Position numbers and translations under genes: made by a program
Assembly: GCF_001426245.1 (NCBI RefSeq)
Contig: NZ_LMCM01000010.1
Location: 291,830-355,829 of the forward strand
Length of the DNA stretch: 64,000 nucleotides
DNA from: Phycicoccus sp. Root101
Lineage (GTDB): Bacteria > Actinomycetota > Actinomycetes > Actinomycetales > Dermatophilaceae
Reading direction: 5' to 3'
Shown: piece after piece, positions 20,477 to 48,865 of the stretch
Numbering within the stretch: position 1 is the first letter of the stretch
Layout of the letters: every line of letters begins with the position of its first letter
Notes under the pieces: generated by a model
What the model was told of the DNA's origin: nothing
Database searches by the model: none
Seen by the model: only the letters and a program-made list of their open reading frames with translations

Positions 20477-20541
20477 TTGTCGCCACAGCGGGGCACGCCC
20501 TAGTCTTCCGTAGGACAAAAAGATAAATCCGTATCGTGGAA
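20477..20541 (+). promoter_or_regulatory. Malic enzyme promoter with tandem IclR-type operators
   Basis: A -35 box TTGTCG (20477-20482) and a -10 box TAGTCT (20501-20506) are separated by 18 bp. Operator copy 1' TTCCGTAGGACAAAA (20506-20520, 9/15 to consensus TTCCACGATACGAAA) starts on the last -10 base. Copy 1 is the strong site, ATCCGTATCGTGGAA (20527-20541), the same motif on the other strand. The centres are 21 bp apart. Binding here would cover the -10 region and the transcription start, so repression is the expected effect. Confidence 0.65.
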
Positions 20542-20556
20542 GATCGAGGTCGAGCC

Positions 20557-22047
20557 ATGTCTGCACCGAGTCCGGGCTACTCCATCACCGTGCGCGCCGA
20601 GGCGCCTGCGGCCATCGACACGACCGGGACGCTGGCGGCTGCCGTCGCCGCCGCGGGCGGCGCGCTCACCGCGCTCGACGTCGTGGAGTCCCGGGGGCAG
20701 AGCCTCGTGGTCGACGTGACCTGCAACGCCTCGGACGCCGACCACGCCGACCGCATCACCGAGCAGATCGCGGCGGTGCCGGGCGTGACCGTGCGCAAGG
20801 TCAGCGACCGCACCTTCCTGCTCCACCTCGGCGGCAAGCTCGAGGTCAACCCCAAGGTGCCGCTCAAGCACCGCGACGACCTCTCGCGGGCCTACACGCC
20901 GGGCGTCGCCCGGGTCTGCCTCGCCATCGCGGCGAACCCCGAGGACGCCCGCCGGCTGACCATCAAGCGCAACACCGTGGCCGTGGTGACCGACGGTTCG
21001 GCGGTCCTCGGGCTCGGCAACATCGGACCCGCAGCAGCCCTGCCGGTCATGGAGGGCAAGGCGGCGCTGTTCAAGCAGTTCGCCGGTGTGGACGCCTGGC
21101 CGGTGTGCCTCGACACGCAGGACACCGAGGAGATCATCATGATCGTCAAGGCGATCGCCCCGGTCTACGGCGGTGTGAACCTCGAGGACATCTCGGCGCC
21201 GCGCTGCTTCGAGATCGAGCGCCGGCTGCGCGACGAGCTCGACATCCCGGTCTTCCACGACGACCAGCACGGCACCGCCATCGTCGTGATGGCTGCCCTC
21301 ACCAACGCGCTGCGGGTCGTCGGCAAGTCGCTCACGGACGTCCGCATCGTCGTCTCCGGCGTGGGTGCGGCCGGTCACGCGATCATCCGGCTGCTGCACG
21401 CGCAAGGGGCCGAAGACATCATCGGCTGCGACCGGAACGGTGCGCTGGACGCGTCCAGCGGGCACCGCGACGAGTTCCGCGGCTGGATCGCCGACAACAC
21501 GAACCCCCGCGGTGTCGAGGGCCCGCTCAAGCAGGTGCTCGCCGGTGCCGACGTCTTCATCGGTGTCTCGGCCCCCGACCTCCTCGACGAGGACGACATC
21601 GCCACCATGAACGACGGCGCGATCGTGTTCGCCCTGTCTAACCCCGATCCCGAGGTGGACCCGGTCGCCGCGAGCCGGCACGCCGCGGTCGTCGCGACCG
21701 GTCGCTCCGACTACGCCAACCAGATCAACAACGTGCTCGCCTTCCCGGGGTTCTTCCGGGGCCTGCTCGACGCGGGCGTCAGCGACATCACCGACGCGAT
21801 GATGATCGCCGCGGCCACGGCGATCGCCGACTGCGTCCACGCCGACGAGCTCAACGCGAGCTACATCGTCCCGAGCGTCTTCGACCCCGACGTGGCCCCC
21901 GCCGTGGCCGCGGCGGTGCGGCACGCGGCAGGGGCGCACGAGCGCCATACCGAACGCTCCTCCTCCCTGGCAGCGGGCCGGACCGCTGACCGCACCACCT
22001 CCGACGAGACCAGCTCTCCCGACACGCACGAGGACCCCGCCCGATGA
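20557..22047 (+). CDS. NAD(P)-dependent malic enzyme with N-terminal ACT domain
   Basis: 496 residues from ATG 20557, preceded by GAGG. Residues 8-85 form an ACT-like domain ([19 protein letters not shown]). The catalytic part has Y113 ([10 protein letters not shown]), K168 ([13 protein letters not shown]), the metal ligands E210-D211 and D235-D236 ([10 protein letters not shown]), and the Rossmann loop [12 protein letters not shown]. It decarboxylates malate to pyruvate. Its promoter carries the same operators as the glyoxylate genes, which fits use of malate formed by malate synthase. It overlaps the next gene by ATGA. Confidence 0.93.
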
Positions 22048-47200: not shown

Positions 47201-48808
47201 TCAGGCCTTCTCGAGCCGGAGCACCTCGGTGTAGGCGGGGAGGGTGAGGAAGTCGGGGAAGTCGGGGTCGAGCGCGCACTCGACGAACAGCCGGCGAGCG
47301 GCCTCCCACTCGCCGTCGGCGAAGGCGTCCGTGCCGACGGACTCCTCCAGCGCTGCATACTCCTCCTCGACCAGGCGGTCGACGAGCTCGCGGGTGACCT
47401 TCTCCCCGGAGGTGAGGGTGACCTCGTTGTGGATCCACTGCCAGATCTGCGAACGCGAGATCTCGGCGGTGGCGGCGTCCTCCATGAGGTTGTGGATGCC
47501 GACCGCGCCGTTGCCCCGCAGCCACGACTGGAGGTAGGCGATGCCCACGGTGATGTTGCCGCGCAGGCCCTCCTCGGTGCGGTCGCCGGGGGTCTTGCCC
47601 GCTGCGAGCAGGTCGTCGGCGGAGACCGAGACGTCGTCGCGCTGCTTGCCGAGCTGGTTGGGCCGGTCGCCGAGGACCTCGGTGAAGACCTCCTTGCAGA
47701 GGTCGACCATGCCCGGGTGTGCGACCCACGAGCCGTCGAACCCGGCGCCGGCCTCGCGCTCCTTGTCGGCGCGGACCTTGGCGAACGCCTGGTCGTTGAC
47801 CTCGGGGTCCTTGCTCGGGATGAACGCAGCCATGCCGCCGATCGCGAATGCACCGCGCCGGTGGCAGGTCTTCACGAGCAGCTCGCTGTAGGCCTTCATC
47901 ATCGGCGCGGTCATCGTCACGGCGTTGCGGTCGGGGAGCGTGAACTCGGGACCGGAGTCGCGGAAGTACTTGATGATGGAGAACAGGTAGTCCCAGCGAC
48001 CCGCGTTGAGTCCGGCGGCGTGGTCGCGCAGCTCGTAGAGGATCTCGTCCATCTCGAACGCGGCCGGGATGGTCTCGATGAGGACGGTCGCCCGGATCGA
48101 GCCGTGAGGGACGCCGACGTGCTCCTGGGCGAAGGTGAAGACGTCGTTCCAGAGGCGGGCCTCGCGGTGAGACTCCATCTTCGGCAGGTAGAAGTACGGG
48201 CCGCTGCCGCGCTCGAGGAGCTCCTTGGCATTGTGGAAGAAGTACAGGCCGAAGTCGACGAGCGCTCCGACCAGCGGCCTGCCGTCCAGCTGCAGGTGCT
48301 CCTCGTCGAGGTGCCAGCCGCGGGGACGCGGCACGATCACCGGCGTGGAGCTCGGGTCCTCGAGCGAGTAGTCCTTGCCCTGCGGCGAGGTGAACGCGAT
48401 CGTGCCGCGGACCGCGTCTCGCAGGTTGACCTGGCCGCCGATGACGTTGGCCCAGTGCGGGGTGTTCGCGTCCTCGAGGTCGGCCAGCCACACCTTGGCG
48501 CCGGAGTTGAGGGCGTTGATCGCCATCTTGCGCTCGGTCGGACCGGTGATCTCGACACGGCGGTCGCGGAAGTCGGCCGGCGCCAGCGCCACGGTCCAGT
48601 CGCCCTCGCGCACCTCCCGGGTCTCGTCGAGGAAGTCGAGCCGGCCGGTCTTCGAGACCTGCTCGCGGCGAGCCCTGCGGGCGGCGAGGAGCTCGTCGCG
48701 GGTGCCGCCGAAGCGGGTCTGCAGCTCGGCGAGGAAGTCGAGGGCCTCGGGGGTCAGGACCTCGTCGCTGCGCTCGACCGGGCCTCCGGTCACGGTGATG
48801 GCGGACAT
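47201..48808 (-). CDS. aceB: Malate synthase A
   Basis: 535 residues from ATG 48808. VWLADLEDANTPHWANVIGG, IVPRPRGWHLDEEHLQLDGR, YFYLPKMESHREARLWNDVF, IRATVLIETIPAAFEMDEIL (active-site Glu) and AAFIPSKDPEVNDQAFAKVR are malate synthase A motifs. It condenses glyoxylate with acetyl-CoA. No isocitrate lyase lies in the window, so glyoxylate from ureides is a natural supply. It is divergent from iclR across a 90-bp gap holding the shared operator. Confidence 0.96.
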   Translation of the reverse strand: MSAITVTGGPVERSDEVLTPEALDFLAELQTRFGGTRDELLAARRARREQVSKTGRLDFLDETREVREGDWTVALAPADFRDRRVEITGPTERKMAINALNSGAKVWLADLEDANTPHWANVIGGQVNLRDAVRGTIAFTSPQGKDYSLEDPSSTPVIVPRPRGWHLDEEHLQLDGRPLVGALVDFGLYFFHNAKELLERGSGPYFYLPKMESHREARLWNDVFTFAQEHVGVPHGSIRATVLIETIPAAFEMDEILYELRDHAAGLNAGRWDYLFSIIKYFRDSGPEFTLPDRNAVTMTAPMMKAYSELLVKTCHRRGAFAIGGMAAFIPSKDPEVNDQAFAKVRADKEREAGAGFDGSWVAHPGMVDLCKEVFTEVLGDRPNQLGKQRDDVSVSADDLLAAGKTPGDRTEEGLRGNITVGIAYLQSWLRGNGAVGIHNLMEDAATAEISRSQIWQWIHNEVTLTSGEKVTRELVDRLVEEEYAALEESVGTDAFADGEWEAARRLFVECALDPDFPDFLTLPAYTEVLRLEKA

Positions 48809-48843
48809 CGGTGGCTCATCCTCACTGTCGGGGTCGGTGCACT

Positions 48844-48865
48844 ACGATACTTCCATGATACGAAA
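48844..48865. promoter_or_regulatory. IclR-type operator between aceB and its regulator
   Basis: TTCCATGATACGAAA (48851-48865) differs from the hyi operator at one base. The core ACGATAC occurs again at 48844-48850, 11 bp upstream in register, with TACGAT (48843-48848) also readable as a -10 box. The second site at 21-bp spacing seen elsewhere is not found here. The position suits both repression of aceB and autoregulation of iclR. Confidence 0.65.

Follow-up and report, generated by a model that had tools for sequence, protein, structure and literature searches.

Excerpts of Suvorova and Gelfand 2021 (PMC8222616) describe tandem sites of IclR-family regulators, 18-22 nt apart, in 94 of 181 orthologous groups, and explain the spacing by tetramers in which two dimers share one DNA face. 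In Streptomyces coelicolor, a homolog of an IclR regulator represses allantoin genes, according to a passage of PMC12772271 that cites Navone et al. 2015. BhcR of Paracoccus denitrificans, a glyoxylate-sensing regulator of the IclR type, activates the beta-hydroxyaspartate cycle (excerpts of PMC11323563). E. coli IclR and AllR follow a glyoxylate/allantoin logic and have a glyoxylate-responsive C-terminal domain. We analyzed a 64,000-nucleotide stretch of Phycicoccus sp. Root101 (contig NZ_LMCM01000010.1, positions 291,830 to 355,829; hereafter the window), which holds a purine, ureide and glyoxylate cluster and in which an IclR-family gene (iclR, 48899-49693) lies beside the malate synthase gene aceB. 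Comparison with other genomes indicates that the iclR product is probably an AllR-type repressor of ureide and glyoxylate catabolism, acting through paired sites 21 bp apart and released by glyoxylate (or allantoate). The regulator type, the motif class and the tandem spacing are already known; the tandem geometry, which a preceding sequence-only reading of this DNA had put forward as special, is thus a common one in the family (PMC8222616, in part), the window differing in that its spacing is fixed at 21.

That reading had placed a 15-mer or its complement at four promoters, those of malic enzyme (maeB), uricase, hyi and the aceB-iclR intergenic region, and all four were recovered. With at most three mismatches allowed, the 15-mer matches the window five times (0.31 expected), a count reached in no shuffle out of 100: at 20527 (minus strand, two mismatches), 24067 (plus, three mismatches, a weak copy), 24088 (minus, two), 29568 (plus, none, the single exact occurrence in the window) and 48851 (plus, one). 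The weak copies at 20506, 24067 and 29547, agreeing at 9, 12 and 9 of 15 positions by a count made by eye, each lie exactly 21 bp from the strong copy, as had been claimed. Written as a palindrome, the site is TTYCRYnnnRYGRAA, and the seven window sites score 11, 11, 10, 12, 10, 12 and 12 of the 12 fixed letters. Perfect palindromes occur three times in the window versus 0.07 per simulated window, and 21-bp pairs three times versus none in 100 simulations. The sites belong to the WTTYCRYW3RYGRAAW class, matching 10-12 of its 12 fixed inner letters with the outer and central W unscored, and to the tandem class of 18-22 nt centre to centre, the distance being 21 at three of the four window promoters and the fourth having a half-site only. 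They share palindrome and spacing range with the WTT-11-AAW tandem class in excerpts of PMC8222616, whereas the E. coli motifs given there, TGGAAATNATTTCCA and KTTGGAAWAWTWTTCCAAC, are other palindromes.

The position of the pairs relative to the promoters also agrees with the earlier description. Candidate -10 hexamers TAGTCT (20501-20506), TACAGT (24062-24067) and TAACGT (29542-29547) each end on the first base of the weak copy, although a promoter scan of 20400-30000, which found two promoters in all against 0.2 expected, picked only the uricase one of the three. In a genus alignment read by eye, conserved -35 and -10 elements precede the pairs of uricase and hyi, the weak copy starting at the end of the -10. 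Sites at the -10 and downstream of it, as at these three promoters, are in the position of a repressor.

Within the window's own genome (4.38 Mb, 12 contigs), the pattern TTCCNYNATNCGNAA, which misses the maeB sites, occurs at four places, all within the cluster (control, none). A looser palindrome has seven occurrences, three in the cluster, versus two for the reversed pattern. One of the four places outside the cluster precedes a glycolate oxidase-like gene considered below; of the other three, one is at a stretch resembling a tRNA by eye, one adjoins a UDP-glucose dehydrogenase gene and one lies between an flgN-like and a sigma-factor gene, and we attributed all three to chance.

Nine of the ten other genus genomes carry the regulator at 81-94% identity, G005 giving no match at E 1e-30. 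We took about 40 kb around the regulator from these nine relatives and placed the window genes on them. The gene maeB in G003 and some rows for xdhA and the HTH_22 gene were unplaced, so that maeB counts are out of nine; the glxR row of G001, an artefact of how the sequence was cut, was left out. Including the window, the operator was found before maeB in 9/9 genomes with a 21-bp partner in each, before uricase in 10/10, each with a 10/12 partner at 21 bp, and before hyi in 10/10, nine having a partner of at least 9/12 at that spacing. Between aceB and iclR, a 12/12 palindrome is kept in all ten genomes; no partner of at least 9/12 lies at 21 bp in any of them, and a half-site, TCTCAT or TTTCAC, stands at exactly +21 in all ten (mean 5.1 of 6, against averages of at most 4.2 at the other offsets from 16 to 26). 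Enrichment of the motif upstream of orthologs in relatives, which had been set beforehand as a test of the regulon, was thus found at all four promoters. In 18 genus stretches, 23 pairs have a spacing of 21 and one another spacing. The pattern TTCCACGATACGGAA, searched at two mismatches in the 11 genus genomes, gave 48 matches in ten of them (control, six), 34 within cluster stretches by a manual count that includes one in G003 located 3 kb beside. G005, which lacks a close relative of the regulator, has no TTCCACGATACGGAA match, and a uricase search there, in one genome and without a positive control, gave none either.

Scanning 450 bp before 19 cluster genes in up to ten genomes revealed no consistent site before DUF6986, HTH_22, permease 1, uraD, glxR, gcl, glycerate kinase, allantoinase, cupin, gntR, permease 3 or guanine deaminase. 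We attributed two lone 11/12 sites, one before glxR in G002 and one before cupin in G009, to chance. Sites of 12/12 or 11/12 precede xdhA in four of ten genomes (G001, G002, G003 and G004), with 10/12 in the window, and xdhA was not counted as an operator target. The degenerate 10/12 site of the window, at 40848-40862, lies near the position of the better sites in those four genomes.

A fifth promoter lies outside the window. The palindrome at G000:C1:231503-231517 matches 12/12 and stands just upstream of a gene of the GlcD glycolate oxidase type (514 bits on TIGR00387, below its cut-off of 568). Its promoter region reads TTGACC ... TAGGGT, followed by the pair GTCCATGGTGCAGAA and TTCCGCCATGTGGAA at 21 bp. 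At E 1e-100 this glcD-like gene is found in 4 of 11 genus genomes (the window's own, G001, G007 and G010), all four carrying the 12/12 site, with partners at 21 bp of 10, 10, 10 and 9 of 12. The earlier inventory of four promoters therefore held as far as it went, and lacked the glcD-like promoter, the half-site at the fourth promoter, and a second palindrome at uricase and xdhA described below.

Named bacterial genomes were then scanned with the regulator, which gave at least 80 loci; the 80 listed loci were used, and records near the window's own genome may be left out of them. These include Streptomyces, Kribbella, Nocardioides, Nocardia and Jiangella. A 12/12 site is present in 57 of the 80 and a 21-bp pair in 65. 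Where a partner of at least 10/12 lies within 17-24 bp, the spacing is exactly 21 in 45 of 47 cases; under a symmetric threshold, 73 pairs have spacing 21 versus six over the other 33 spacings from 12 to 45. As a control, 168 permuted half-sites not starting with TT average 0.98 pairs at 21, with a maximum of 20. This mean leaves out permutations starting with TT; a first control, overlapping permutations included, had a mean of 8.1 at 21. The permutations TTCYRY and TTYYRC gave 102 and 98 pairs versus 73 for the consensus because both overlap the true motif.

A 21-bp pair lies between divergent allB and iclR in 41 of 50 such loci. Elsewhere, pairs separate iclR from DUF6986 in Kribbella and from maeB in Leekyejoonella and a Nocardioidaceae metagenome-assembled genome, and they precede aceB in some Streptomyces and Nocardioides, hyi in Nocardia and Leekyejoonella, and uraD in Kribbella and Leekyejoonella. 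Malic enzyme and DUF6986 therefore recur beside the operator in other genera. In Streptomyces, the gene for the relative of the regulator (60-68% identity) mostly diverges from allantoinase, with aceB close by, and the 21-bp pairs are again present; allantoinase and aceB loci are where AllR of Streptomyces reportedly acts. A related regulator beside allantoin or aceB genes and the same paired operator are thus found in both groups, in a comparison made without a tree and with S. violaceoruber (L100) standing in for S. coelicolor. S. coelicolor AllR, described here from passages citing the original work, is likewise an IclR-family repressor of allantoin genes; the window genus differs in that its sites precede malic enzyme-DUF6986, uricase and hyi, and glcD in 4 of 11 genomes.

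By profile scores, the regulator belongs to the IclR family (HTH_IclR 61 bits, cut-off 22; IclR_C 148 bits, cut-off 24). Its nearest NCBIfam models are BhcR, IclR, PcaR/PcaU, KdgR and AllR, each below its cut-off. BhcR (NF045644) scores best, and equivalog level is reached neither there (194 bits, cut-off 350) nor with E. coli IclR (NF008601, 164 of 380) or E. coli AllR (NF007548, 111 of 406). Its nearest named relatives are in an Intrasporangiaceae metagenome-assembled genome (76%) and Humibacillus (73%). The residues of E. coli IclR that bind the glyoxylate oxygens are tabulated in PMC11323563 (Table 1, from the accessible part). In a pocket alignment read by eye, Asp212, Ser239 and Ser241 of E. 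coli IclR align to Asp204, Ser229 and Ser231, which are invariant in 17 of 17 aligned sequences; Gly160 aligns to Gly152, which is Ala in 6 of 17, and Ala161 to Val. The kept residues make a glyoxylate-type inducer plausible, and with it the earlier suggestion of release by an intermediate such as glyoxylate.

From the observed sites, spacing, conservation, gene content and pocket residues, we infer the binding, repression, inducer, operon extents and physiological logic of the regulon as follows. Two repressor dimers would bind next to each other, each on one of two palindromes, with 21 bp, or two turns, from centre to centre. The paired sites run from the -10 into the transcript start, and bound protein would thereby block initiation. 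Repression of this kind would act on three operons, those of maeB-DUF6986, uricase and hyi, and also on the glcD-like gene that this species shares with three relatives; between aceB and iclR, the full site and the half-site cover the iclR start region, suggesting autorepression. Ureide degradation would deliver glyoxylate (or allantoate) to the C-terminal pocket, upon which the DNA would be released. Derepression would then open both outlets for glyoxylate, one being the glycerate route (gcl, glxR, hyi and glycerate kinase), for biomass. The other would be malate synthase with malic enzyme, which we take to be the classical dicarboxylic acid cycle, for energy.

Several observations weigh against this account. 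The aceB-iclR region lacks a full second site and aceB a clear -35, an arrangement that also fits activation, and BhcR, the best-scoring model for the regulator, is an activator (excerpts of PMC11323563). The regulator falls under the curated cut-offs of the AllR, IclR and BhcR models, and of the four hydrophobic positions in the pocket, three are changed (Ser for L143, Val for L154 and L220). Within the genus, 14 of the 48 TTCCACGATACGGAA matches lie outside the cluster (control, six), and G005, without the regulator, still has malic enzyme (71% over residues 114-461). Among the 80 listed loci, 15 have no 21-spaced pair at the threshold used, and the maeB-iclR, DUF6986-iclR and allB-iclR pairs sit between divergent genes, so that they may have one gene only as target. 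Sites also precede relatives of 38-49% identity, indicating that IclR paralogs use the same motif class and that another IclR protein could therefore bind some of the sites.

The arrangement at aceB might instead reflect a dual regulator that represses its own gene and the paired-site promoters and activates aceB, as proposed for BhcR in Paracoccus. The lack of a clear aceB -35 by eye and a divergent region with one full site and a half-site would suit it, as would the best NCBIfam match being BhcR (194 bits, cut-off 350), which is required for expression of its operon (excerpts of PMC11323563). We nevertheless regard it as unlikely, given that an ordinary 21-bp pair occurs at some Streptomyces and Nocardioides aceB promoters and that the sites at the three window promoters, at the -10 and downstream, are in repressor position. 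Binding by some other IclR-family protein, with 48899-49693 controlling only itself and aceB, seems quite improbable: paralogs at 38-49% identity do adjoin sites of the class, but in most listed loci it is a relative of 48899-49693 that adjoins the pairs, and G005 lacks both a close relative and matches. As to the inducer, allantoate, allantoin or another ureide in place of glyoxylate appears possible, if rather doubtful. The regulon begins at uricase, and three of four hydrophobic pocket positions as well as Ala161 differ from E. coli IclR; however, the three residues that contact the glyoxylate oxygens are invariant, and the operator is common to glycolate oxidase-like and malate synthase genes, whose shared metabolite is glyoxylate. 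On comparison, then, the sequence-only proposals of one IclR-type regulon with sites on one DNA face in repressor position, and of 48899-49693 as its likely regulator, are favored.

The DUF6986 protein encoded with malic enzyme was compared with solved structures. A plain sequence search found no solved relative at E 0.1, and the HpcH_HpaI score of 24.9 bits is just below the cut-off of 25. A profile comparison matched it to malyl-CoA lyase 4l9y (E 0.006) in an alignment that pairs a Glu and an Asp. An AlphaFold2 model (14 sequences; mean predicted local distance difference test score, pLDDT, 79.9; predicted template modeling score, pTM, 0.81) matches the putative lyase 3qqw, 6kkh, malyl-CoA lyase, malate synthases and CitE at E of about 2e-7 to 2e-6, with template modeling scores by query of 0.34-0.54 among the matches listed. 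Residues 254-267 of the model, the aligned Asp included, are of low confidence. The modeled fold suggests that DUF6986 may have a role in glyoxylate or malyl-CoA chemistry.

A second palindrome, TTCAACAnnnTGTTGAA, lies at the uricase -35 and before xdhA in 9/9 genus relatives, with 12 to 14 of 14 letters matching. The pattern TTCAACAAACTGTTGA, at one mismatch in the 11 genus genomes, gave 17 matches, all of them uricase or xdhA sites (control, none; none in G005). In the form TTCAAC-N5-GTTGAA, matched at 11/12 or better, it occurs in 69 of the 80 listed loci (76 sites in total, some of them unplaced); a slightly stricter filter left 51 for the true half-site, versus an average of 0.36 and a maximum of 9 for the other 89 permutations. 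It lies between divergent allB and iclR in 49 of 50 loci. In 19 of the 80 loci we found a gene for a small Thiamine_BP-HTH_22 protein, in which a thiamine-binding-like domain is joined to an HTH_22 domain (both parts in 18), and in all 19 the palindrome lies downstream of this gene; the distance is at most 70 bp in 14 loci and 250 to 2022 bp in the remaining five.

The homolog of this gene was present in eight of nine genomes, seven of them selected for a palindrome-bearing locus; the ninth, G005, has neither homolog nor palindrome. Twelve further genomes comprised eight selected for palindrome-less loci, one with a doubtful match and three with the palindrome. In all five with a strong homolog, gene and palindrome share a contig and are 0.1 to 3.1 kb apart. 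Five of the seven with a weak or no homolog have no palindrome by either of two patterns, of which the first alone would miss Streptomyces-type sites and the second covers those. Of the other two, Nocardia vulneris (G070) shows imperfect matches only; in Actinomadura alba (G067, weak homolog, E 4e-6), two matches to the Streptomyces-type pattern have intact half-sites, a finding that speaks against gene and palindrome being strictly paired. In two Jiangella genomes and in S. griseoaurantiacus, an AllR-type gene is present and neither pattern detects the palindrome, evidence that AllR is not its reader. The GntR regulator (37670) was rejected as reader because no gntR match was found in the G002, G004 and G010 stretches, all with the palindrome. 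Together, these comparisons suggest that the second palindrome mostly tracks the Thiamine_BP-HTH_22 protein across Actinobacteria. We tentatively propose, as a possibility a little short of even, that ureide promoters of Actinobacteria are two-input gates, read by AllR and by the Thiamine_BP-HTH_22 protein, the latter being the predicted binder of TTCAAC-N5-GTTGAA at the uricase -35, xdhA and Streptomyces allantoinase. AllR would report the end product and the other protein the pathway start, sensing an early purine such as urate or xanthine, and DUF6986 would be a further glyoxylate-consuming or malyl-CoA-type lyase.

A regulon of this kind is known, allantoin repression by the S. coelicolor homolog being stated in a passage of PMC12772271, whereas the combination of four genes that the earlier reading held to be undescribed was not recognized in the literature searched: with subscription papers mostly outside that search, we recognized none that assigns a common operator to malic enzyme, DUF6986, uricase and malate synthase. 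Nor, in the same literature without Navone et al. 2015 and the regulon tables of PMC8222616, did we recognize any on the second palindrome or on an AllR regulon that includes malic enzyme, DUF6986 or glcD. Searches there for DUF6986 found none, and those for malic enzyme with allantoin nothing judged relevant. Under one conserved control, the breakdown of ureides would be linked to malic enzyme, malate synthase, the lyase-like DUF6986 protein and glycolate oxidase-like genes. This predicts that these bacteria burn glyoxylate through a dicarboxylic acid cycle and suggests a role for DUF6986 that can be tested, and the second palindrome with its candidate regulator is a possible early-pathway purine sensor.

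Table. Operators, promoters and genes of the proposed regulon, in window coordinates.
Feature	Position	Strand	Basis or remark
Weak operator copy, maeB promoter	20506..20520	+	11/12 palindrome; 21-bp pair in 9/9 genus maeB promoters
Strong operator copy, maeB promoter	20527..20541	-	11/12 palindrome
Weak operator copy, uricase promoter	24067..24081	+	10/12; 10/12 partner at 21 bp in 10/10 genus genomes
Strong operator copy, uricase promoter	24088..24102	-	12/12
Weak operator copy, hyi promoter	29547..29561	+	10/12; partner scoring 9/12 or more at 21 bp in 9/10 genus genomes
Strong operator copy, hyi promoter	29568..29582	+	Exact 15-mer, 12/12
Operator between aceB and iclR	48851..48865	+	12/12; 12/12 in 10/10 genus genomes
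Conserved half-site TCTCAT, +21 of the 48851 site	48872..48877	+	5/6 or 6/6 in 10/10 genomes
Second palindrome CTCAACAAACTGTTGAC	24027..24043	.	Overlaps uricase -35
Second palindrome TTCAACAGTTTGTAGAG	40884..40900	.	Before xdhA
Candidate maeB promoter TTGTCG-18-TAGTCT	20477..20506	+	By eye; similar hexamers in most aligned genus rows
Uricase promoter TTGACG-17-TACAGT	24039..24067	+	Promoter scan; kept in genus alignment by eye
Candidate hyi promoter TTGACC-18-TAACGT	29518..29547	+	By eye; kept in genus alignment by eye
Candidate iclR -10 TACGAT	48843..48848	+	TAnnAT in 10/10 aligned rows, by eye
Malic enzyme (maeB)	20557..22047	+	Pfam malic 107 bits, Malic_M 73 bits
DUF6986 protein, malyl-CoA lyase/CitE-like	22044..23297	+	PF22484 596 bits; 4-bp overlap with maeB
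Thiamine_BP + HTH_22 protein, candidate second regulator	23444..23953	+	PF01910 and PF13309 above cut-off
Uricase	24240..25166	+	TIGR03383 350 bits, cut-off 168; start codon not fixed, frame opens further upstream
hyi, glxR, TPP (thiamine pyrophosphate) enzyme taken as gcl, glycerate kinase, FAA hydrolase, allantoinase, ureidoglycine aminohydrolase-type cupin	29597..37615	+	
Malate synthase A (aceB)	47201..48808	-	TIGR01344 784 bits, cut-off 594.5
IclR-family regulator (AllR-type), likely DNA-binding protein	48899..49693	+	Pfam IclR_C 148 bits, HTH_IclR 61 bits

The genes from hyi to the cupin are probably one operon read from the hyi promoter, as their packing and the lack of further sites suggest. 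The hyi product is a hydroxypyruvate isomerase-like protein and the glxR product a tartronate semialdehyde reductase. Other genes of the cluster encode purine permeases, OHCU decarboxylase, hydroxyisourate hydrolase, the GntR regulator (37670), an allantoin-type permease, parts of xanthine dehydrogenase and guanine deaminase. Among the window proteins scanned, a subset of all, no separate allantoicase was found; the cupin (36797-37615) scores above the cut-off of the model for a bifunctional allantoicase/(S)-ureidoglycine aminohydrolase (496 bits, cut-off 350). Divergent from malic enzyme is a PaaX-like regulator gene (19546-20403; 165 of 264.55 bits), and in the genus genomes where it could be placed, the operator-bearing intergenic region is common to this gene and malic enzyme.

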